A stretch of 64,000 bases of DNA, from contig CAMXCT020006573.1 in the NCBI GenBank assembly GCA_947184155.2, positions 1 to 64,000 on the forward strand, written 5' to 3'. Source of the stretch: Cladocopium goreaui. Its lineage: Eukaryota > Sar > Dinophyceae > Suessiales > Symbiodiniaceae. This document shows positions 10,688 through 35,932 of this stretch, one piece after another; position 1 is the first letter of the stretch; each line of letters starts with the position of its first letter. The notes under the pieces were generated by a model. That model did not search any database and had not been told where the DNA came from. It worked only from the letters and a program-made list of their open reading frames with translations. The position numbers were made by a program, and so were the translations under genes.

Positions 10688-13600
10688 ATGGCCAGGAAAG
10701 GAAGCACTGACCATTTGCGCTTCGGCGTGCCCGATACTGCACCGGTGAAGCCGACCGACCTCTCGGCACGGGAGATTTCCATCACCCTTTCCATGATCTA
10801 CGCGGTCAGCTTTTTTGAAGGACGCGGAACGGAGGCTTTCTGGAAGTATTTGTGGAGGCTTTGGAGCTTGTTTGTTGGCTTTTTTAAGCCGCATAAATCA
10901 ATGAAGTGATGCAAGATTTAGGGGCCAGCCGGGATGTAAAAGAACGATAAAGGAACTCCAAGACATCTATATAAAGAGATGAAGAGTGAAACTTTGATGG
11001 AAGAAAGGCTCAGACCTCCTGCATGAATGGATCTCATCCTGTGGGAAGGAGCTGACATGCAGCTTTTGCCTGCATCTTTCCGAGCACTGGAGGGAGACCT
11101 GGGTTTGTCTCCAACGACCTTGGCTGCATCCTCCTTGATGCAAACGCTTACCTGCACCTCAGCTGTGACTTCTACCTTGAAAAACTGGCCCTTGTTGGAG
11201 ACGATTTGGGGAGATTTGGGACCACAAAAGATCCATTACCGTGATTTTGTTCAGTTTGTTTTTGACTGTGACTCTGTTCTGGAAGCATTGAGGCGCGACA
11301 TTCTCGGTTTTTTGGGGCGTACTTTTGGACAACGGCATCCTGTCTCCTCAGCAAGTGCTTTTTAGTGGCTGCAGCGGATGGGGCGTGCTCACCCTTCTTT
11401 TGGCCTCAATCACTGACACTAGCCACCTGGCCCACCTGGCTCAGAAAAGGAATGGATTGTAGAGAACTGTTGGATTCGGCCCACGACGCATACCTCATTT
11501 TGCAGCCCATGCAACATAGGAGGAAGAAAGGTATGAATCCTTGGAAGTTTGTAGTATCTTGACCCCTTGACCCAGAGCTTTTTCAGATGAGGCTGGATCT
11601 TGGTGCTCCGTTTGTTCAACGGGATTGCCCTAGCAACGCTTTCGCCCACGACGCAGACCCTGATAGCAGACCTGACACCTCCACAGGAGCTCAGCTGCTG
11701 GGGCACTGTGGGATCCACAGTGAGTGTTGAGACTAAACTTGCAAAGTGCCATTCTTCCCGCGCGAATTGTTGCAAATCCTGGAAGAGAGAACAGAAATTC
11801 CACTGAACTAGCATATACATCCATATTCATATACTACATAGATTATGATATATATATAACATATATATATATATATGTAAAAACTCCTGCAGTAAAACCA
11901 TGTATTGTATATATCATCGATCTGCCCGATAGCGTTGGTTCAAAAGAGCTGAGTGCTTAACGGTGTTAGCTTAGTATTTCACCCCATTGTCGGTTGACCT
12001 GGTAAAATACAGGTTATCAGCCGTAGTCTCACTACTTTGCTATGGGGACCCCAATTGACCATCCTCTCGCCGTTCCAGGGTCAGGTCCATCGGCTGTCGC
12101 TGTGCCTAATATGGCCGGGGGCAACCCCGAGCCGATGGATGACGAAACAATGTTCCAACCCGTTGTTGCGTACTTTACCTTCATACAAAACAACCTGTCC
12201 CAGATTACTAGTGGGAATACCCTGCAAGTCATGAGGGAAGCTGAACAGAGGCACCTTCAGATAATGCATGGAGTAGTTGACTCAATTCGAAACGAATGGT
12301 CAAGTAGACTCGTAATGCAGGAGCAGGAGTATGAGCAAAGGCTGCAGGAGGTAGAAGGTAATGCCATTAGTGCCCTCAACGAGGAGAGGAAACGAGGCGA
12401 CGAGATGGAGGTCAGGTTGAATCAGGCTCAGGCATCGCATGACAAAAGAATAGAGGATGTAAAGGCAGAGGCAAACACAAAGCATGATCAGAAAATTGCA
12501 GAGGAAAGGAAACGTATCACTAGTGAATTCGAAGCTTCCTATGCACAGACAGTTGAACATGCAAAGAATGCCATAGCTGCCACAAAGAAGCAATATGAAG
12601 ATCAGGCTGCAATTGATCAGGCCAGGTTCATCAGTTTGAGGACTGAGTTTGAGAACTACAAGAAGGAGATGGCCGACAAGATCAACGAGGCAGCGGCTCA
12701 GAACCTTAGCCTTCAGGACCAAATCGATGATCTTCAGGAGCAGTTAAAGCATGTTGCCAAAGCGCAGCATGCCTCCGTTCCGAAAGCATCCGTCCAGAAC
12801 GCCGAGCCGGCCGCTACCACTAGCGTGCCCCACTTCAATATTGCCACTCCCAAAGCATCCGATGCACAGGCTGCCAGAGGCAGTGATGAGCCGATTCTTG
12901 AGTTTAAGACGCCTGCAGTGTTGGCGCAGGAAGCAAAGGCCAAGTTGGATGAACTGCTCAAAGGTGGCAGTCCCAAGCAAAAGCCGGCTGTCGGCAACGA
13001 CCAGCCCCAATTGCCAACGCAGTCAGGGTTTTTCACTCCCACTGAAGCTATCAAAACTCCCCCAAATGAATCTCCTAAGAGCGCAACCAAGCAACAGCAA
13101 GTTATGGGTCCCTCAGATCTTATTGAATTGGTGAAAGCCTTAACCCAAAGGGAAGAAAAGGATAAGCCAAAAACTAAGGAGGCTGAACTCATCAAGCTGA
13201 ACAACATGCCCGCTCCGGAGTCATATAGAACTTGGAAGAATCACGTCAGGGATGAAGTGAAGAGCTGTTCAGATCGCCCGGATGAGGCGTGGCTCTGGCT
13301 CAACGAGGTGTACGATCAAGAGTGCACCAGAGAGCAGTTGGAGAAGAAACTCCAAGATCCTGGAAAGTTCCTTACGCTGGATACAAAGTTATCAGCAGCG
13401 CTCACGCGCTCAGCCGGAGGGGACCTCGCAACTAGGATCTTGAATTTCAAGGAGCAGCAATCCCGAAAAGGCATCCAGGTCAGGGGAAGATATGTTCTGC
13501 TTATGTTTGAGGACTACTTCAAGACATCAGAAGAAGCAGGTAGCCTTTACAGAGTAGAAGATCTTTTGGGTGTTGTCAAAGTAGGCGATACTGTCCAGGA

Positions 13601-16600
13601 TCTCCGAAGATTCATCAACAAATGGGATGCTACCCTAGCTGGCATGGCTGTCACCCCTGATGATGCTGTGTTAAGGGACATCTTGTTGAGGCAGATCCGA
13701 CCAAGTCAGTTGCTGAAATATGACATCGAGGTGTTTGACCGTGCTCATGAGAAATCCCATGAAAAGTCTTACAGTTTTCTTCACCAATCCATGAAGAACT
13801 TGATCGATCGTGAACGATTGAGGGAGAACAGGAACCGCATTGCGGAGAAGAACAAGGCTGGGATTAAGGACACAAAGGCCGCACCCGCCAAAGGCGATGG
13901 TCGCGGCGGCCGAAAGGGCTCTCCAAGTCGCGGTAGATCGCAGGAACGAGGTGGCAAAGGCGACAAGATTTGCTATAAGTTCCAAAAGGGTACCTGTGAT
14001 AAGGGGAAGAAGTGTCCATTCAAGCATGTCAAAGATGATAAATCTCGAACTCAATCACCCAGAAGAACCAAAACACGTTCACCATCAAGGGGCAATAAGG
14101 ATGATAAGGGGAAGAAGATGTCTAAAGAAGAAATGGCTAAAACCCCATGCATCTATCATGCCCAGGGAAAGTGCAGACGTGGTGACAAATGTTTTTATAA
14201 ACATGATGACAAAGCCGCTGCCGCCACCAAAGACACCAAAAGGGCCAATTCACCCGCTCCCAAGAAGAAGGGCAAGGATTCCACAGCCGCTCCATGTCTG
14301 ATCCACAAGTTTGCATGCATCGTCCGAAAACAGCCGAAGGCAACTTCGTGCTCTGATGAGGCAAGTGTCAGCATGAAGCGTCTTAGATTCCGAAAGGCCC
14401 CACATGTGATCGAGGTGAAGGCAGTCGGTCGTCAAGTCCCAGTCAAGCACCGTCCAAGAGAGTTCACTAAGGTGTACAAGACAGCTGAAGATGTTCCAGT
14501 TTCATCGAAGGTTGAACAGCATGAAGCTCAGGTTCGTGCAAGACAGCTCCAAGAAACTGTGAAACTTCATGATTCAGATGTTGCACCAAGTTGTGGGTTT
14601 TGTTGTTGGGATGAGGACACACGTGACATCACATGCAAAGAGTGCAGGTTCATCAGCGGTCCCAAAGCCCTTAGAGACATTGGTCGTTTCCCGTCAATTG
14701 CCACAGCTGCGCCAAAGGCCGGTGTTAGTTGGCTCGTTGACTCAGGTAGTGAATCCGATCTTGTGTCCAAAGGAATGCTGAGGGATGTAAGTGCCAAGAA
14801 CTGCCGTGCAGCCGAGCATCCGATTTCCTTAGTCACAGCCAACGGTTCGACTGAGGCAAACGAAGTTGCTGATGTCAAGTTGTCCGCATTGCCAGATCCC
14901 GTGCATCCGTATGTGCTTGATCATACCCCAGCTGTGCTCTCTGTAGGAACGAGATGTGTAGATCAGGGTTACAGTTTCGTATGGCCTGCCAATGGCAAAC
15001 CAATCCTAGTCCGTCCAGATGACAAGGTTGTCCAGCTCAAGATCGAAGGTCATGTCCCAATCTTGGATGATAGTTGCAAGGTTTATCCCAAAGATCAATT
15101 TCAAAAGGATAAGCACCTCAAAAAGTTGTTTGCAATGCCGACCTCACGGTCGAGCTCAAAAGCCAAGCGGGACGAAGCCCAAGATGAAGAGCAGTTGGAT
15201 GAGTTGGTGGAGGATGACGCTCAGCAGGAGTACATCCGAAGCCGCAAGACTGAGGATCTGTTGGCTGAAGCTGCAAGTACCCAACATCAGTACACGCATT
15301 TCCCCAAGAACCCCTTTTGCAGAACTTGCCAACGAGCAAGGATGATGGCACCTCAGGCACGAAAGAAGGGTGGTCAGAAGAGAATCGAAACTGAAGTGTT
15401 TGGTGACCACATCATTGGGGATCATGTCATCATCAAGAAAAATGTAGAAGAGGGTTTCAGGGGGGAGCAAGTTGCGTTGGTGTTGAAAGATCTGCACACC
15501 CAATATCGGTATGTCTACCCTAGCCAGTCCAAGGACTCACAAAGCTGTGTTGATGGTTTGAATCACTTCATTGGATCAAAGGATGATGTTCAAGTTGTGT
15601 ACACTGACAATTCCCCAGAATTGATCAGGGCCATTAAGGATTTGGGTTACAGACACCAAACTTCCATTGAATACGTAGATTCATCAAAGTCTTTTGCTGA
15701 GCGCGAAGTTCGTCAGATGTTGGAAGGTGCCCGGAGCAACTTGTTGCAATCAGGACTTCCTTTGAAGATGTGGCCATTGGCCATGCAGCATCATGCGACC
15801 GCGATCAATGCAAGCCCCCAGCTTGACGGCAGTGATTCCCCATGGCAACTCAGGTTTGGTGAAGAGTTCCCTGCAATGCACATTCCATTTGGTGCCAAAG
15901 TGTTGTTCTGGAATAACCCCAAGAGGTTGGATAACACATCAGGTAAGCTCTCCCCAACAGCAAATGAAGGAATTTTCCTTGGGTATTACATCCAACCAGG
16001 TCATGATTGGAAGGGTGAATACTTAGTTGCCAAGTTGGAAGCCGCAGATTATCATGTCAACTGGGGTGCACTGACAATCCAAAGAACAAAGAGGTTGGAA
16101 TTGCCATCCGAGGGTTTCATCTTTCCTTTGAAAGCTCTGATCGACTCAAAAGCACCCAAAGCCGATCGCCTCGAGGACCAGGTCATTCCGCAGACACCCA
16201 AAGCTGTGCCTCTTGAGTCCAGTTTGCATCCACCGCAAGATGAGTATGAATACGAGCCAGGTACGCCTCTACCAGCCGACAGCGATGTCGAGCCTGATGC
16301 ACCCGAAGCGCCCGTATTTCCAGATCTCAAACTGACCCCCAAAGGTGAAATTATTCCAGATGGACATCATTGGGATGGTCACCGGATTGTACGTAACTAC
16401 AAAGGTTCAAAGCGTCCGGAGGGGATTGACTCAGAACTGTGGAAGATGTTAGGACCCCAAGATAGGAAGCTGATCATCGAGGAAGAAGCGAAGAAAGCAG
16501 CCAAGGAGCAGGAGGAAAAGCCAGCATCATCATCTGGCAGCAAGGGCAAAAAGAAGAAATCTTCACCGGCCCGGCTTGAGGCAACTCAATGCCCTCCTGC

Positions 16601-19600
16601 AACTGCAAAGCTCGTAGGCAATGTTTGGGAAATCATTCCAGCCAATTCCCAAAAGTTTTCCGTGCCGGCAATGCCAAAAGTTGCCGCGCCTGCCACAATT
16701 GAGCACCGGCCTCGAATTAGAGAGCTCGTCCGAGAGAAGATCAAGGAACTTGAGTTCAAGGTTGCACTCGAGCTTTTCGCTTCAGTTGCTAGGCTTGTAT
16801 CAAAAGATGAGATTGCCAGCAACCCCAAGGCCAAGGCCGCCCTTGATAAGGAGTGGGATAATCTCCGTAATAAGGGTGTTTGGGATGAGAAGCGTGTTCG
16901 TGAATGCCGCGACATAGTAGCTGAGGCTCGTCGCAATGGCCAAACTGTGCACCTAGGTCGAATCTTTGAGGCTTGCTATGAGAAGGGTTCTGAATTGCCT
17001 GAGTCAGACCCTCGCCGGAAGTTCAAGGGTAGGACGGTTTTCCAAGGGAACAATGTCAGGGACGAGAATTCCGATCACGCACTCTTCAACGAGTTAGGCT
17101 CTTCCCCAGCATCCATGGAAGCAGCAAAGCTGCTAGATGCTTTCGGTAGTCAGCCCGGGTTCTCCAAACAGCAGGCAGATGCAATCCAAGCCTACATACA
17201 AGCCCTCTTCACAGGGGTGCCCACATGGTTGTCACTTCCACGCAACAGATGGCCCAAAGATTGGGAGAAAAAGTACTGGCAACCCATGGTTCCTATGTTA
17301 CTTGCCCTTTATGGTCATCCTGATAGCGGGGGTATTTGGGAAAATCATCTCAATAGCCGTGTGGTGAAACAGGGTTGGAAGCAAATTTTACCTGACATTT
17401 GGCATTCAATTTTTCATCATCAAGAGCTCAACTGTCTTTTGGTTGTGTATGTAGATGACTTCAAGATGGCTGGCCCCACTGCCAATCTGGAAAAGGCATG
17501 GGCAAGCGTCAAGGCTGCAGTGAACATTGGTGATCCTGAGCCATATGACCGCTACTTTGGCTGTATGCACCGTGAATTTCACAACATCCGGTTGCCTTCG
17601 CAGGCACACCCTTTTGCATTCGCCTTTGAAGCCAAGAAGTCAGCAGCCGCACAACATAGAACACAAGACTGGTGGGAGCATGATGAAACCAACATGGCAT
17701 GGATCAGACACCACATTCAACCCCGAAAAAGATTGTACCAGCCGGTTGATGAGGGGGAGATGTAACTTGTCAAAATTCAAGTCGCATAACTTTCTTTGAC
17801 AAAAAGGTAACACTGAAAAGTTGTCCTAGCATCACCGACGGGAACAATCAAGGGGGCTATGATGTTTACACAGATGATTGGAAAACATCTAGCAATCAAA
17901 CAAATGAATTCTGGACAGGAAAAACAGTTTTCTGTTATGGACAAGATGGACCTGACAAATTCAAGCAGTTTGCAATGGCAAGTAAAGCCAGGCCAGGACC
18001 ACATCGCGACAAACGTGAGGCGAAAAAGGAAGCCAAGGCCTCTAAGTTCAGGGGGTTGAACACGCCGTGAAGAACAAAGCTGGCGTCATGGCCAAGCCCG
18101 TGAACTTAGTAAGGTATGACATGAGTGATTTCCTGGGGTCCTGTGTAGAAAATTATTGTAATCTTGCAAAAGTCAGCCCATCGTCCTTGAAAGAGGTGCC
18201 AACACCATTCACAGATGCTGGCATCGCACGGCCCGCACTCAGTGAAGATGAAAAGCCTGGCAAACTCCAGCCAGTGGCCAGCAAGATCTTAATGAAGATA
18301 CTCTTTGCCGCCAGAATGGCAAGGTTCGACTTGTTGCGTGCCACACAAAGCTTAGCATCTAGAGTGACAAAATGGTCCATAGAATGCGACGTTGCCTTGC
18401 ACAGATTGGTGTCATACATTCATTGTACAAAGCACCATTTCCTAGAGGGTTTCATTGGGGATGCCTTTGATGAATGCCAACTCTGGCTTTTTGCCGATGC
18501 AGATCATGCAGGCGAACATGATAGCAAGAGTACCACTGGCAGTGCCATTGTGCTTGTAGGCCCCAACACGTATTACCCCTTAAATGCATTCAGTAAGAAA
18601 CAAACGGTTGTTGCCATATCTTCAACTGAGGCTGAGGTAGTTGCCGCAAATCACAGCATGAGAGCCGAGGGCATTCCAATGCTGGCCCTGTTTGAGCAGT
18701 TGAACCTTTTCAAGAAGCTGCAGGGCAAACCAGCTCGCGATGCCGCGAAGCCCCAAGAAGATGTTGTGTTCACTAGGATTGACCCTGAAATTGACGAAAT
18801 CCGTAATGGGAATGTCGATACAGGTTGTAGTGTCGCGGACATCAACTCCCTCAAGGCCAGTTTCCCTGAATTTTATCAAGTCAAATTTATGGAGGACAAC
18901 CAGGCGACTATTACAGTCATGTCCACCGGTTCATCAGCATCCATGAGACACATGAACAAAACACAAAACATCAACTTCAAATGGTTGAAACAGCAATTTG
19001 AATGTAAACAGTTCGATCTTCTCAACGTAGGAACCAGTTTCCAAGTTGCAGACATTCTTACAAAACCTTTTACCCGACCAGCCCTTTGGTTGCATGCCAT
19101 TCATCTCATTGGCATTGGCCCGACAAAGGTGGAAGAAGCAGCAGCCCGCCACACCGCGGCGCCGAACTCCACTAAGGTGCCAAAACTAGCAACCGCTGCC
19201 GGGAATCAGGGGGGCTCCCAAAAGTCTTTTAAGCCCAGAATGTTGATCGAATTTTGCTGCTCTGATGATTCGAAGCTTAGTACCCCAAGAAAGTCCAATG
19301 AAGATTGCCACTGCATTAGGGTTACCGAAAAAGATGATGGTACCACTAACAGCTGTCGGCAACGGCTAGCCTCCCAAGTCCAAGATTTCAGAAATGATTT
19401 CAATGACGGCACTTTGATACTCTATGCATCGTTGCCTTGTGTAGGAGGTAGCCCATGGGGGAACGTGAATGGCCTTACTGTTGAGGGTCAGGAAAGAATC
19501 AAAGAGCAACAAAAACAGTTTACCAAGCTGTTCAAATCTTTTGTCAAACTTGTGGATGAAGTTTATGATGAACGAACCTTGATAGCATTTGAACTGTCCA

Positions 19601-22600
19601 AGAATTGCAAATATTGGAGATGGCCGATGGTTAGAAGATTCCTCAAAGAACGATCCATGACTACTCATCACTTTGATGGTTGTATGTTGGGTGTTCTTGG
19701 AAACAACGGTCAACCAATGAAGAAAAGTTGGACTATTGCAGGAAATTTTAAAGAACTCACCGTGTTAGACTCATTCAAATGTGATGGCAAACATGAGCAT
19801 GATCAAAGTAGGGGCAAAGCTCTTAAACTTGCTGAGAACTATACCTTCAAGTTGACTGACATGCTCCATGAGTGTTTCCGGGTAGCTGTGGTGGGCCAAA
19901 CATCCAAAAGGATTTCACCCGTTGTCATTCGTGCCTGTCCTGCAAAAATGGCTGACTCACGATATGCCACAGCACACCCGGCCAGCCGCGAGGCTGCGCT
20001 CGAAGCCACACGTGAGGCTAACAAAGAAGCATGGTTGCTCCTTCACAATCGCATTTTGTATGCATTGGCCATGCGCAATGAAGGTGAGAATCAGGCTGCT
20101 CAGGACCTTGTGGATGGTTTGATGACCGAATGGACGCCGGCTTCGGCCCTGAGGTTCTATGGTCGAGAGGATCCGCTTGCAGAATACCTTAGTTTCTGCT
20201 TTTTGCCAAAGGAGTCCCACATCGAAAAGATCATGCTGCCAGAGATGCCCGTCAATGACGTAATCTGGATCTTAGTCTCTGACTCGTCATGTGCATTGAT
20301 CACAGGGCGTAGGAAGACACTTAAGAAGTTTGATCTTTCCGAGCACTACCGACAGCGCAAACCCAAGTACGTGACTGAGTTCATCCACGAGATGCTTTGG
20401 GGTAAAACTTTGCAGAAGTTGGTAAAGAGAGGGATCGAATTGGCCGCGGACGCCCGCGAGCGCTATCCTCATGCACGCATCAACCTGCACTTGTCCTGGT
20501 TCGGAAATGAATTGGTAGGGGAGGATGGAATTGCCCAAAATCCAAATTGGCCGTACGATGGTCCCAACGGGCACTGGCCCACGATCCTGGATGATTGTGA
20601 GCGCCACTTGACATGGTTCATCAACAAGGCCCGGGAGTTGGACTTGCAGACGGCCGGTCTCACGACCGCGCCCTGGAGCGCAGATTACGGCATTCATCCA
20701 ATTTTCGATCAATTCTTTCGACCATTTGGAGCCCCGATTCAAAGCTCTAACCAGCAGCCTGCAAGGGCGTGCCAATCCGCGGTATCCGTGGCTAAAAGCA
20801 AAGGGGTACGCCGATGCAATGGAATTCAGAGACCAGTGGCATTTCGCCAACTCTGAAGAAAATCGCACGCGCCTTGCTGCCTATTGGACAGCTACCCTTT
20901 TCGCACTTGATTCCGGATGGCGGGTCGGCCAAATTGGTTTGGAGCTTTCTGAGTGTGCCCAGGAGACATGGGATGATTTGCGGAGGAACATGAGCGCCGT
21001 CCTGGACGAGCTGCCAAGATCCTATCAGGAGACATGTGCAAACATCACCAAGTTGCTTTTTGGAGAGTCCCGAAGACACATTGTGCCGACGGGCAGGTCA
21101 TTCACCAAGGAGGACGTCGAAGCTCAACAACCTGACACTGAGGACTACATCGACATCAAGACGATGCCTTCGGGCACATTTGCTGAGCCTCCCAAAGATG
21201 ACCCTCCAAAGGCCGCCGGCGACGGCGAGCCCGCTGCATCCAGCAGAGCAACAATCCTGGTCCAGACAGCTGAGGTCATGTTGAAGTCGCGGCCGAAAGC
21301 AGCACCAGCATCAATGGATGAGCCCGCAGATGACAAGGGAGCCACATCCAGCCAGTACCAGCCGCAGGCAACTGCGCGCTTCGAGGGACAAGCATCTGGC
21401 CACGTGAAAGCATATTGGATGGAAGAGCATTTGCCTGAATACCAATATACAATGGTGACCAATGCAGACGGGGACGATGTGCCCGGCATCCTCTTTGAAG
21501 GTACGGCTTATGAGCTGGAGCTGATATCGGCATCCGACGTTGAGACCATTGCCAGCCAGACTCGCGTCGACAAGAAGTTTTCTGATTTTGCAACTCGTGT
21601 CAACAAAGTTTGCAGGGGGCATGGATCCTGTGCCAAGGTGCCAATGGACAAAGACCTTTGGATTGACTTGGAGGATTTCGCCAAAGCCTTCCGCAAGGAA
21701 GTGCCCCCAGATGTTTTCATCACTGTCGCAAACCTGTTTGGCACCGCAATGAAGATCGACAAGCATGGCAAGAGTAGGTTCCAATTCTTGTGTGCAAAGA
21801 TCTCCCATTTTCCTGTCGACAATGGCCTAGGCATGCCGTATTATCCTGTGAAAATCCGTGCAATTCAGGGTCACTCCGAAGCTGCCTTGAAAACCGCAGG
21901 GGGTCTTTATGCCAATTCAACCATGGTGTATTGCTCAGACCATGTATCCCCCGAGCGAAAAGCCGCCTTCACTGGCGTGCCCCTGTGTGCCATGACTGAG
22001 GTTCCTGAGGTTGTCTTCCATCGCACGATGAAAAGCAGCTGGAAGAGCATCGCACAGAACGGCCTGATCCCAGGCGGCGGTGCAACAGTCAACAGTGGCC
22101 GTGCCCATATCTACATGGCAGAACACTGTATTGGCACGCAGGGGTATCGATCTGGATTAAGAGCAAAATGTCCAATCGAAGTCAAAATCGCAATGCGGCA
22201 AGCAGTTGAAGCTGGTGTCATCTTTAGTCGCACAGAAATGGATGGGATTTTGTGCTCAGAACGCATCCCACCGCAGTTTCTGGTCAGCATCTCAGAAGAA
22301 GGACAGGTGCTTTGGTCCCGCGCCGAGAGCAATCTCGAGCCCAGCACATGGACTGGCGCGGCATCTGCCTCAGCACCGAAAGCCAAAGCGGTCACCTTGA
22401 CTGCCCGAGATGATGCAAATGACGACCCAATGGATGACACCAGCACGGGGCGACCCGATGCCAAGTCCACTGATGATGATGCAGCCACTGCCTCAATGCA
22501 AGTTGACCAGCCGCCCGCAAGGACGCGCCGTGTTTACATTGCACCCAAGTACTGCGAACCTTTCATGGGCTCCTGTCCCCTCTGCCAGGTTGAGTACGTC

Positions 22601-25600
22601 AGTGGCCAAGTGACATGCACCACATGTGGTTTTGAGCCACTCCCAGTGGACGAAAGTGGCGATACAAAAGAGGCCAACAAACCCAACAGGAGGACCCGCA
22701 TCCTTGAACGGCGAATGCAAAGTCTCGCCGGGTTCGGAATGTTTGGGAAGATGAGCGGAAGCTTGCTGACAGCCTTGACGGAAGAGCAAGCCAACCTGCT
22801 ACGCCGAGAACTGGGCCCCAGGGGAATCACATCCGTGGAATCAGCAGTCCTCAAAGACTGCCGCGACAGGCATCGACGTGCAAAAGCGCTGGGCTACGAG
22901 GACGTGGAAGATAGATACACCAGCGACGTCACTTTTTGCGACCGCATCCACGGTGAGGGGAAGGACCTGCAGGACTGCATATTTGACGATATGTTCGCAT
23001 ATGGCAACCTCCCCGATCCCCCAAGGACCAAAGCTCAGATCTCGGCTGGCGTCGCCGCCAATGCCCAAAATGAGAACTGCTTATCTAAGTTGATTTTCAT
23101 GTCTCAGCCTCGTGGCGTTGATGGCTTCCCAGTTGAGTTCCGCAAAACATGGAAGAAGGTCTGGGGTTTCATGTTTGGCCGCCACATTTTTACAGAGGAT
23201 GAATATGTCAGCTACATCGGCCGTCGTGGCGCATTCCGTGGCCTGTTGACCTGGAAGGGTACTGTCCAAGTCCCTCTTGATGGCACTCGTGATTTCCTCG
23301 AAAAGGTGTATGAGGAAAACCTTCCCTTGGTTCGGAGCAATCTTGAACGCAAAGAGAAGCAGAGCGCCGCTGCAAAGGCTGGAGGTCCTGGAGGTCATAA
23401 GGCCGACCCCACGGTCGCGCCCACCATTGAGCGAAAGCGCAAAGCCGAAGCTGATGCATCCGCAACCGCAACAGATGTCACAGCCGCCTCAAGCTCTGCT
23501 CGCGCAGATGCCTCGCACGCTGATGCCCCAGCCGCACCATTTCTGGTACCCGAACCACCAACATCCAAAGCAGGAGCACGACCATTCTTGGAGCCTGAGA
23601 CACCGCCCACTGCAAAAGCAGCAACCGCAGGAGTCACTTCGAAGGCTGCAAGCTCCGGTCGCCCGGATGCCTCTTGGAGTTGGAATCGTGATCACTATGG
23701 TGCACGCCGAGAATGGAGTTTCTGGCGTGGGGCTTGGTATTACCGTGACGAGGCCGGCGGCCGTTGGATCTTTTGGAACCGTTAGGGAGACGATGATTTT
23801 CTTTTGTAGCATAGCGCAAGATGTGGCATGGTAATGTGCCTTCCTTGCAACGCTGCGCTGGGTTTTACGGGCTTGAGCTTTTTAGAGGGACCTTTGAAAG
23901 ACTGCACAAAATGTCTAAAACCAACTAAAGAAATTCGGCTACCCGCGAGGGTATGCTTTTCTGGGTTATTCGTTCTCCGCAGTCGTCCCTGCTCGCCCGA
24001 GGGGGGTGTAAAAACTCCTGCAGTAAAACCATGTATTGTATATATCATCGATCTGCCCGATAGCGTTGGTTCAAAAGAGCTGAGTGCTTAACGGTGTTAG
24101 CTTAGTATTTCACCCCATTGTCGGTTGACCTGGTAAAATACAATATATAAAATTAATATAATAATAATAACAATAATAATAGTAATGATAATAATAAGAA
24201 TAAGAATAAGAACAGGAATAATAATAAGAAAAAGAATAGTAATGATAAGAATAATAAACATAAGAAGACTAATAATAATAACATTAACAATAACAATAAT
24301 AATAATAACAATAATAATAATATTTAAAATAATAATATAATATAGTAAAAACAATATATATATATATATATATCTATTTATATACATATTGTGTTTATGA
24401 TGACTATATCAGCAAGAATTTTTTCCTTCCTGGAAAAGGAGCGAGGACGGGCCTACAGTTGGTCTGGCTTTTCTATGGCCATGGGCTGCATGAGCACTGC
24501 CATGATCACCACCACCATCTCGCAGAGGAGGACTGGGGGATTCGGATCTTTGAGATAAGCTGATGAAAAAATTCGCACCGCTCCAGGAAAGCTGATATTG
24601 TTTGCCACTACATGGGTAGGGTCAAAATTAGGTACCCCAATAATTGGATGGTGAATACTAAACTAGACTAACATCTGTGGTCCCACATCGGTCTTCCATT
24701 TTGACCCACATCCACATGAGTACGGCTGTACTTTTCGATGTTTTAAGCTTCCTGTTCGTGCGCAAATGATTTTCCAACACTGGTGAAAAGTGGATCAAGT
24801 GGTAGGTCTCATCGGGTATTTTTAGACTTTAAGTCACACTTCTGGGATGAAACTTCCTACATGAAGCGTCAAAATGTTTTAGATCATGGTTTGTGAATCC
24901 TGCTGCTTTGGAGAACCATGATGTTTGAGTAAACCTGTTTCCTTTCTCGAGAATCTCGCAAGGGTTTATAGGAATGGCGCTCTGTATTTATTCCATCAAC
25001 ATTCTTCCCAGCAAAAAAACTGAAAATTCTTCCCGCTGTCTGATATTCTATCTGGCATCTATTCTGACATTCTTTCTGAAAAATAATCTGGCATTCTATC
25101 TGGCATTCTATCTGACATTCAAGTCTGGCATTCTATTCTTTCTTGCGCGCCGCTGAGGTTTGTGAGTGCCCACTGACATCTGGCGCTCGCAGTTGAGGTC
25201 CAGCAGTGCGGCAGTGCCCACTGAGATCTGGAGCTCGCGGTTGAAGTCTGGCCATGCCACTGTGATCTGGTGCTTGCAGTTGAGGAGCTGAGGGAAAAGA
25301 GTAGGAGAAGAAGGAGAAGAAAAAGGAGGAGAAGGGCGGGATGCACCTCTGATAAAATCTAGAGACCCTCACGGGCTGGAATCTCCAATCGCATGAAACT
25401 TCATAGTGATACCCCCCCTCTCCCACCGGCTGCTCACGACACCAATATCACAGTGTTCATGGAATTCTCCTCGGGGACACCGTCGGCATGCCGCCACTGG
25501 CAGCACATTCGGCAGCATCCACATCCTCAGCATCATTGTGTTTTCATGCAAAGCTCCCTGCCAAGCTAGCTTTCGTCCTATCCCCTAGGCCTCAAGTTTT

Positions 25601-32845: not shown

Positions 32846-33090
32846 ATCAGAGAATTGCATGACTCTCTTTGCCACCCTCAAGATTGAGCCAATACAATTT
32901 GGCCAGTGAGCATTGGAGCGAGGCTCATTCGAACCATGTACCATAATTCTGAGGTCTGCGGCCTCAGATTGGTTGGGATATATATTTAAGGGCTGCCGCC
33001 CCTGCCGCCGACCCCGGTAAAGAATCGGGGATTGCTGGTGAAACAGGCAAGCTGTGTGACGAGAAACTTTGGCAAATGCATTATCACAAG

Positions 33091-35932
33091 CAAGAAACCA
33101 GCAGCCAGACACCTTTTGTAAAACACAACCGAAACAGCAAAACACCACCTAATTTCGTGCCGAACATAACGCAAAATCAATCACAATAATAGGTTTTCGG
33201 GGGCCGAAACGTCCCTTCTGAAATCCTACTAGAAATCCAATTTTGTCCAATAGAAATCTAATTAGTCAAATTTGATTGATCGCTAATTTTGATTGCTGCT
33301 GCTACCTCTAATAAAGCAAGAAACCAGCAGCCAGACACCTTTTTTAAAACACAGCCGAAACAGCAAAACACCACCCAATTTCGTGCCGAACATGATGGAA
33401 AATCAATCACAATATTAGGTTTTCGGGGGCCGAAACGTCCCTTCTGAACTCCTACTAGAAATCCAATTTTGTCCAATTTTGATCTCTAATTTTGACTGCT
33501 GCTGCTGCCTATAATAAAGCAAGAAACCAGCAGCCAGACACCTTTTTAAAACACAGCCGAAACAGCAAAACACCACCTAATTTCCTGCCGAACATGACGC
33601 AAAATCAATCACAAGAATAGGTTTTCGGGGGCCGAAACGTCCCTTCTGAAATCCTACTAGAAATCCAACTTTGTCCAATAGAAATCTAATTTTGTCCAAT
33701 TTGATCTCTAATTTTGATTGCTGCTACTGCCTCTAATAAAGTAAGAAACCAGCAGCCAGACACCTAATTTCGTGCCGAACATGACGCAAAATCAATCACA
33801 ATAATATACCAATGTTTATAGTTTTCGACCAATGTTTATACCACTGTTTGTTGCTGCTGTTGCCTCTAATAAAGCGAGAAACCAGCAGCCAGACACCTTT
33901 TTTAAAACACAGCCGAAACAGCAAAACACCACCCAATTTCGTGCCGAACATGACGGAAAATCAATCACAATATTAAGTTTTCGGGGGCCGAAACGTCCCT
34001 TCTGAAATCCTACTAGAATCCAATTTTGTCCAATTTTGATCTCTAATTTTGACTGCTGCAGCTACCTATAATAAAGCAAGAAACCAGCAGCCAGACACCT
34101 TTTGTAAAACACAGCCGAAACAGCAAAACACCACCTAATTTCTTGCCGAACATAACGCAAAATCAATCACAATAATAGGTTTTCGGGGGCCGAAACGTCC
34201 CTTCTGAAATCCTACTAGAAATCCAATTTTGTCCAATAGAAATCTAATTTTAGTCAAATTTGATGGATCTCTAATTTTGATTGCTGCTGCTGCCTCTAAT
34301 AAAGCAAGAAACCAGCAGCCAGACACCTTTTTTAAAACACAGCCGAAACAGCAAAACACCACCCAATTCCCTGCCGAACATGACGCAAAATCAATCACAA
34401 TAATAGGTTTTCGGGGGCCGAAACGTCCCTTCTGAAATCCTACTAGAAATCCAACTTTGTCCAATAGAAATCTAATTTTAGTCAAATTTGATTGATCGCT
34501 AATTTTGATTGCTGCTGCTACCTCTAATAAAGCAAGAAACCAGCAGCCAGACACCTTTTTTAAAACACAGCCGAAACAGCAAAACACCACCCAATTTCGT
34601 GCCGAACATGACGGAAAGTCAATCACAATATTAAGTTTTCGGGGGCCGAAACGTCTCTTCTGAAATCCTACTAGAAATCCAATTTTGTCCAATTTTGATC
34701 TCTAATTTTGACTGCTGCTGCTACCTATAATAAAGCAAGAAACCAGCAGCCAGACACCTTTTTTAAAACACAGCCGAAACAGCAAAACACCACCTAATTT
34801 CCTGCCGAACATGACGCAAAATCAATCACAAGAATAGGTTTTCGGGGGCCGAAACGTCCCTTCTGAAATCCTACTAGAAATCCAACTTTGTCCAATAGAA
34901 ATCTAATTTTGTCCAATTTGATCTCTAATTTTGATTGCTGCTACTGCCTCTAATGAAGTAAGAAACCAGCAGCCAGACACCTAATTTAAAACACAGCCGA
35001 AACAGCAAAACACCACCCAATTTCGTGCCGAACATGACGGAAAATCAATCACAATATTAAGTTTTCGGGGGCCGAAACGTCCCTTCTGAAATCCTACTAG
35101 AAATCCAATTTTGTCCAATTTTGATCTCTAATTTTGACTGCTGCTGCTACCTATAATAAAGCAAGAAACCAGCAGCCAGACACCTTTTGTAAAACACAAC
35201 CGAAACAGCAAAACACCACCTAATTTCGTGCCGAACATAACGCAAAATCAATCACAATAATAGGTTTTCGGGGGCCGAAACGTCCCTTCTGAAATCCTAC
35301 TAGAAATCCAATTTTGTCCAATAGAAATCTAATTTTAGTCAAATTTGATTGATCGCTAATTTTGATTGCTGCTGCTACCTCTAATAAAGCAAGAAACCAG
35401 CAGCCAGACACCTTTTTTAAAACACAGCCGAAACAGCAAAACACCACCCAATTTCGTGCCGAACATGACGGAAAATCAATCACAATATTAGTTTTCGGGG
35501 GCCGAAACGTCCCTTCTGAACTCCTACTAGAAATCCAATTTTATCCAATTTTGATCTCTAATTTTGACTGCTGCTGCTGCCTATAATAAAGCAAGAAACC
35601 AGCAGCCAGACACCTTTTTTAAAACACAGCCGAAACAGCAAAACACCACCTAATTTCCTGCCGAACATGACGCAAAATCAATCACAAGAATAGGTTTTCG
35701 GGGGCCGAAACGTCCCTTCTGAAATCCTACTAGAAATCCAACTTTGTCCAATAGAAATCTAATTTTGTCCAATTTGATCTCTAATTTTGATTGCTGCTAC
35801 TGCCTCTAATAAAGTAAGAAACCAGCAGCCAGACACCTAATTTCGTGCCGAACATGACGCAAAATCAATCACAATAATATACCAATGTTTATAGTTTTCG
35901 ACCAATGTTTATACCACTGTTTGTGCAATGAG
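33091..35932 (+). repeat. Satellite array with higher-order structure, units about 203/223/228 bp
   Basis: Each unit begins (C/T)AAGAAACCAGCAGCCAGAC and carries CGAAACAGCAAAACACCACC, TTTTCGGGGGCCGAAACGTC and CCTACTAGAAATCCAA. Starts read at 33091, 33317, 33520, 33742, 33875, 34077, 34305, 34533, 34736, 34959, 35162, 35390, 35592 and 35815, giving lengths 226, 203, 222, 133, 202, 228, 228, 203, 223, 203, 228, 202, 223 and about 118. Two truncated units (33742-33874 and 35815-35932) share the same rearranged end with ACCAATGTTTATA twice, so longer blocks were duplicated. Open frames on either strand follow the period and are not counted as genes. Confidence 0.93.

Follow-up and report, generated by a model that had tools for sequence, protein, structure and literature searches.

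Here we describe a Tpt1/KptA-like domain inside the polyprotein of a Ty1/copia-type long terminal repeat (LTR) retrotransposon of the dinoflagellate Cladocopium goreaui. The DNA analysed, called the window, comprises positions 1 to 64,000 of contig CAMXCT020006573.1 (assembly GCA_947184155.2, forward strand). The element spans positions 11876-24142 of the window and is bounded by two identical LTRs of 136 bp each. The best explanation, to which we give a probability of roughly 0.4, is that this copia-type polyprotein carries a selected Tpt1-like domain that would remove 2'-phosphates from RNA, in an NAD+-dependent manner, for reverse transcription.

The domain is, judged by profile and fold, a divergent relative of Tpt1/KptA. 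The Pfam profile PF01885 matches residues 297-511 of the translation (profile positions 15-176 of 177) at 44.3 bits against a cut-off of 26, and the E-value of 2.6e-11 excludes a chance match. The hhalign comparison gave 99% to KptA, with the RNA lobe and the NAD lobe both aligning by profile. Chance or composition as the source of the resemblance is rejected by these two matches. PF01885 is also carried by 16 of the 23 relatives found. The domain model has the Tpt1 fold, and the structural comparison with Tpt1 is significant: the first 20 of 48 Foldseek matches in the PDB are Tpt1/KptA, with 24-27% identity to the best-aligned solved chains.

These results bear out the first-pass annotation, which had read a Tpt1/KptA-like RNA 2'-phosphotransferase domain from four motifs. 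All four are present and in order in the plus-strand frame 20726-23785 (KIRAIQGHS ends at 21877, VVFHRT starts at 22010 and YRSGLRAKCP at 22145, followed by IPPQFLVSI). The domain lies 3' of the RNase H motifs and before the 3' LTR (Table 1), as had been claimed. It does lie within the frame that was named, but it occupies only about 21560-22312 and not the full frame.

The residue numbering used for Tpt1 is that of an enzyme which we take to be from the genus Clostridium. The essential tetrad is reported as Arg18-His19-Arg68-Arg121, with Lys66, His101, Thr103 and Arg139 also serving the active site (PMC6333775). The alignment equivalents are R297 (CRG), G298, K349 and R351 (KSRF), H432 and T434 (HRT), R459 (SGRAH) and R479 (SGLR). 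The equivalents of Arg18, Arg68, His101, Thr103, Arg121 and Arg139 are kept. Counting the rows with letters in a 17-row alignment, R297 is found in 14/14, R351 in 16/16 and K349 in 15/16, and H432, T434, R459 and R479 are each found in 17/17. The canonical Arg-His motif LRH, which the first-pass annotation had not listed, is CRG here, with the Arg kept and the His lost. Three arginines of the Arg-His-Arg-Arg tetrad are thereby retained, the last being Lys in the far relatives P0039 and P0045. Because the tetrad His is lost and HGT reads HRT, the domain is classed as Tpt1-like and not as canonical Tpt1. The alignment indicates an enzyme core that is kept and a contact to the junction 3'-phosphate that is lost.

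The genome scanned amounts to 1,165,616,438 bases in 6,202 contigs. A search with a 166-residue query returned 607 candidates, of which the best-scoring 150 were scored, the window copy included. These match the query at 92-100%, and none has a stop in the queried 166 residues. Twenty-six of them lie in single open frames of 3,912-3,930 amino acids. The Tpt1-like domain is part of one Gag-Pol-accessory polyprotein of about 3,920 residues. The domain had been described beforehand as cargo, which is right as to its presence in the element but not in the sense of a loose passenger gene. The window copy is split over three frames, with breaks at about 17766-18046 and about 20725. Its length from Gag to the frame end (12027-23785) is about equal to the long open frames of other copies. 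In the relative P0039 (38-40% identical), a single frame of 1,596 residues extends from RNase H motifs over both middle domains to Tpt1 and the zinc ribbon.

The domain is also found between LTRs in other copies of the family, as the first-pass reading required. LTRs were found at both ends of five of six further copies (C1447, C1022, C144, C2768 and C1613); the 5' end of the sixth, C1188, was not found. Clear 5-bp target duplications (AAACC, TATTG and GTATT) accompany three of these five. Of the remaining two, C1613 has no 5-bp duplication and C1022 sits in an AT repeat. Other copies have LTRs that are as little as about 81% identical to that of the window.

Purifying selection maintains the domain. 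The ratio of nonsynonymous to synonymous substitution rates (dN/dS) was computed over 801 bases of the domain from 20 sequences, the window and 19 copies hand-picked from the best 150 of 607 and mostly of the more divergent ones. L028, with three stops and its first part out of frame, is left out of this set, and 15 of the 190 pairs were dropped at a dS of 0.05 or less. The median is 0.112 (range 0.05-0.30, 175 pairs). The first 300 bases, which cover the N-lobe (RNA-lobe) part, give 0.041 and the remaining bases, the NAD-lobe part, give 0.161 (168 pairs). All six motif strings are present in 19/20 sequences, L045 being without the KSRF string. That many copies keep the domain intact suggests that the element uses it to copy itself.

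Constraint is also seen among proteins of the family. In ten hand-chosen rows of the 17, mean identity is 0.78-0.79 for the two lobes and 0.55-0.61 for the linkers. The zinc ribbon is the highest of the nine segments compared (0.845), while the end of the SGNH-like part is no better than the linkers (0.59). With the upstream region as query, a protein search that scored the 7,996 candidates sharing most words found 32 proteins. Thirteen of these continue for 340 residues or more beyond the SGNH-like DxxH, and all 13 have the Tpt1 K-x-R-F and GH motifs. One distant relative, P0124, is a Symbiodinium pilosum protein.

A second type of carrier came from a genome search with a canonical KptA-like protein, which gave 23 matches. 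L080 (G000:C1209:39312-39845, minus strand) is a stand-alone eukaryotic-type gene with canonical motifs in a 335-residue frame, and is probably the host's own Tpt1 gene. L078 (G000:C1) and L079 (G000:C5523) are bacterial-type canonical KptA genes. The neighbours of L078 look bacterial, L079 is judged by its protein alone, and both contigs may be contaminants in the assembly. Four of the other 20 matches were read (L081, L082, L083/L084 and L085). These have long frames with an RNase H-like motif, recognised by eye, followed by a Tpt1 domain that keeps LRH. RT-like (reverse transcriptase-like) motifs are present in L084 (C2112) and a tyrosine-recombinase-like end in L085 (C710). By eye, all four resemble DIRS elements, each with a Tpt1 domain of its own that is more canonical. 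In the three such copies scanned, PF01885 reaches 90-96 bits, and the profile matches to the motifs read by eye are weak (RVT_1, E 0.28; Phage_int_SAM_1, E 0.098; PDB integrase, E 0.33). In viral contigs, 20 stretches matched the search pattern and none of them encodes a relative.

A tree of 20 domains separates the copia-type and P0045-type domains from the DIRS-like and cellular ones by a branch with 100/99 support. This split suggests two captures of Tpt1, one by copia-type and one by DIRS-like elements, with the caution that long branches meet and that four of the 17 inner branches are starred. Support for grouping the DIRS-like domains with the host gene is 82/75, which the tool does not mark as firm. 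A wider proposal is offered tentatively. Retrotransposons of this lineage may use NAD+-dependent RNA phosphate chemistry as a functional step of their replication. At least two captures of a Tpt1-type enzyme would have taken place, one by the copia-type element, where its neighbours are C5-methyltransferase-fold and SGNH-like domains, and one by a DIRS-like element. The enzyme would have stayed within Pol because 2'-phosphorylated or end-blocked RNA is encountered during reverse transcription in these hosts.

If the domain does remove 2'-phosphates, it would travel with the RT into the particle of the element and use NAD+ to act on RNA phosphates. The phosphates would most likely be taken off the RNA of the element, where they would remain after the repair of cuts by healing and rejoining; alternatively, the substrate could be another RNA used in reverse transcription. 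Their removal would let the RT use the RNA. The loss of the His that touches the junction 3'-phosphate in Tpt1 suggests that the preferred substrate may have shifted from the splice-type internal junction towards RNA ends. The host's own probable Tpt1 gene and the Tpt1 domain of the DIRS-like elements also count in favour of this explanation. Priming by tRNA is not known from DIRS elements, so a role common to both element types would more likely concern the template RNA or its ends than a tRNA primer.

Several observations weigh against this interpretation. The position of the tetrad His is Gly in every copia-type row with letters there, and the HGT motif, which contacts NAD+, reads HRT in 17/17 rows (His and Thr kept, Gly replaced by Arg). 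The best of the NCBIfam RNA 2'-phosphotransferase models reaches 18.3 bits against a cut-off of 239 (cut-offs range 231-279). A single-sequence match to solved Tpt1 has an E-value of 0.0068, compared with 3.3e-6 for the profile match. The AlphaFold model is weak (mean pLDDT, the model's own confidence score, 51, the other four models 34-43), only one of the 48 Foldseek matches has an E-value below 0.001, and the fold match is mainly over the NAD lobe. That lobe is less constrained than the RT, for which dN/dS is 0.020, a value from nine sequences (27 of 36 pairs). Seven of the 20 sequences, one base short in the RT, were left out, as were L077 (short, with gaps and a stop), L065 (stop), L076 (gaps) and L068 (no match). 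Among the scored matches, 124/150 lie in shorter frames, and 457 candidates are unscored. The primer site belongs here as well. Its 21 bases are the same in the window and in five other copies, despite the divergence of the LTRs, and they lack an initial TGG, so that pairing with the 3' CCA end of a tRNA is not indicated. Read as the anticodon arm of a half-tRNA primer, the site implies TACGGCTGATAACCGTA, which has 0 exact matches in the genome; a half-tRNA primer of this exact form was rejected, and the earlier idea that the domain processes a tRNA-fragment primer finds no support. Scanning prokaryote contigs with a 19-mer yielded a single stretch, in Nostoc, where no tRNA was found.

Other roles have been considered for the domain. 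It is unlikely that it ADP-ribosylates terminal phosphates on element RNA or cDNA, placing an ADP-ribose cap that would shield the ends from sensors or nucleases of the host. Tpt1 from prokaryotes, fungi and humans is reported to ADP-ribosylate 5'-phosphorylated RNA or DNA in vitro (PMC8053099), and structures of KptA with DNA make up several of the matched PDB entries. The loss of the His contacting the junction 3'-phosphate also fits a shift from internal junctions. However, the equivalent of Arg68, the residue that binds the 2'-phosphate being transferred, is unchanged in 16/16 rows with letters.

Rather unlikely, and ranked behind capping, is a counter-defence role in which the domain would repair tRNA or element RNA that a stress or defence nuclease of the host had cut, as proposed for phage KptA. 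The presence of the domain in two element types of this genome is in its favour, but a Pfam scan of the element's three frames detects neither an RNA ligase nor a 2H enzyme, and we know of no such nuclease in these hosts. The precedent lies in jumbo phages, mimivirus, nucleopolyhedrosis viruses and the polyproteins of a picorna-like virus and a nidovirus, where KptA is read as RNA repair or processing (PMC9503650).

It is improbable that the domain is no longer an enzyme and now serves the polyprotein as an RNA- or NAD-binding module. The lost His, the change of HGT to HRT in copia-type rows and the stronger constraint on the RNA-lobe part would agree with this. Nevertheless, R297, R351, H432, T434, R459 and R479 are without substitution in 14 to 17 of 17 rows with letters, and among these residues only R459 differs in far relatives (29-38% identity), where it is Lys. 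Hardly credible is a useless fragment of a host gene: the host has a probable Tpt1 gene (L080), but the purifying selection, the motifs kept in nearly all sequences and the conservation across relatives down to 29% identity disfavour a passenger.

The domain resembles Tpt1/KptA in both lobes, in motif order and in the active-site equivalents listed above. It differs in its fusion to a retrotransposon polyprotein, in the changes of His to Gly and HGT to HRT, and in insertions between motifs. KptA is described from phages, including jumbo phages, and rarely from eukaryotic viruses, including the polyproteins of two RNA viruses (PMC9503650). The Beihai picorna-like virus, the Botrylloides leachii nidovirus and jumbo phages likewise have KptA within the replication polyprotein of a mobile genome (PMC9503650); those carriers are RNA viruses or phages, whereas the carrier here is an LTR retrotransposon.

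Accessory enzymes have been described from other retrotransposons. SymbioLINE-Dnmt and SymbioDIRS-Dnmt3 belong to dinoflagellate and charophyte retrotransposons with DNA methyltransferases (DNMT), and share with the present element a nucleic-acid-modifying accessory enzyme under selection and, in DIRS, a Pol with an extra domain (PMC5890265). The same paper describes Symbiodinium Copia as being without any DNMT domain, in contrast to the putative C5-methyltransferase-fold domain (no Pfam match) and Tpt1 found here. LTR elements of bdelloid rotifers encode a GDSL/SGNH esterase or a DEDDy exonuclease as ORF3 (PMC5408684), so that SGNH-like and RNA-processing enzymes have been captured by LTR retrotransposons there too. 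The bdelloid ORF3 is separate, while the SGNH-like domain here is inside the polyprotein, and the accessible text mentions no Tpt1 for those elements (PMC5408684). Drosophila copia is reported to use a half-tRNA primer (PMC5371799). Judged by its motifs, the element shares with it the order protease, integrase, RT and RNase H (PR-IN-RT-RH). The start of the primer site presumably resembles that of Drosophila copia, which to our knowledge has no accessory domains.

No retrotransposon with Tpt1/KptA is named among the literature matches listed (titles and abstract openings, mostly outside the subscription literature). Among those matches, what is new is an NAD+-dependent RNA-repair enzyme in a retrotransposon, accessory enzymes as such being known. 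If true, the proposed role would link RNA repair and ADP-ribose chemistry to reverse transcription. It would also bear on the function of Tpt1 outside fungal tRNA splicing, which is described as an open question (PMC6333775). It would further suggest that Pfam scans miss some of the enzymes that copia elements encode in such genomes.

Table 1. Features of the copia-type element in the window
Feature	Position	Strand	Remarks
Tpt1/KptA-like domain	21560..22312 (about)	+	PF01885, hhalign, structure, conservation
CRG motif	21611-21619	+	
KSRF motif	21770-21781	+	
KIRAIQGHS motif	21851-21877	+	
HRT motif	22019-22027	+	
SGRAH motif	22094-22108	+	
SGLR motif	22151-22162	+	
5' LTR	11876..12011	+	136 bp, TG...CA; direct repeat 100% identical to 24007-24142
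3' LTR	24007..24142	+	direct repeat of 5' LTR
Possible 5-bp target duplication ATATA	11871..11875 and 24143-24147	.	low-complexity flank
Putative primer binding site GGTTATCAGCCGTAGTCTCAC	12012..12032	+	adjoins 5' LTR; same 21 bases in 5/5 other copies
Polypurine tract GAGGGGGG	23999..24006	+	just before 3' LTR
Open reading frame (ORF) 1	12042..17765	+	Gag (two CCCH fingers), protease, integrase and the start of RT
CCCH fingers in Gag	13971-14027, 14148-14204	+	
Protease motif DSG	14730-14759	+	
Integrase C..C	15297-15332	+	
Integrase TDN	15594-15626	+	
RT motif YVDD	17433-17474	+	
ORF 2	18067..20856	+	remainder of RT, then RNase H, C5-methyltransferase-fold domain and the start of the SGNH-like domain
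RNase H motifs DAD, SSTEAE, EDNQA	18487..18918	+	
Putative C5-cytosine-methyltransferase-fold domain	19216..19908	+	no Pfam match
SGNH-hydrolase-like domain	20266..20854	+	motifs SDS, GNE, DxxH (DxxH in next frame)
ORF 3	20726..23785	+	frame named in the first-pass annotation
Zinc ribbon CPLC...CTTC	22574..22627	+	most conserved of nine segments

The motifs occur in the order Gag with CCCH fingers, protease, integrase, RT and RNase H, the ORF 1 and RNase H motifs being given their customary names. The PR-IN-RT-RH order is that of Ty1/copia. The other hallmarks of that type are present, namely LTRs with TG..CA ends, target duplication, primer site and polypurine tract. The profile RVT_2 matches the window RT weakly (E 8.5e-4, 19.4 bits, under the cut-off of 31.6). 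The Gag has two CCCH zinc fingers in place of the CCHC knuckle, which is the usual zinc form of Gag.

Beyond the Tpt1-like domain, ORF 3 comprises the end of the SGNH-like domain, linkers, the zinc ribbon and a conserved C-terminal region. Conserved in the methyltransferase-fold domain are SLPCVGGSPWG (in 19417-19461) and FELSKNC (in 19582-19608). The SGNH-like domain sits between the methyltransferase-like and Tpt1-like domains. Its Ser, Gly, Asn and His blocks are present and are conserved in aligned relatives, and its fold is weakly supported. In the distant relative P0045 (1285 amino acids), the same three domains are preceded by a different N-terminus in the place that RNase H takes in others. 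This N-terminus looks by eye like a 2-oxoglutarate (2OG)-dioxygenase and has no Pfam match. Elsewhere in the window there are tandem repeat arrays at 33050-35915 and from 46361 up to 46875 or beyond, the repeats being spaced at about 200-230 bases and at about 10-15 bases.

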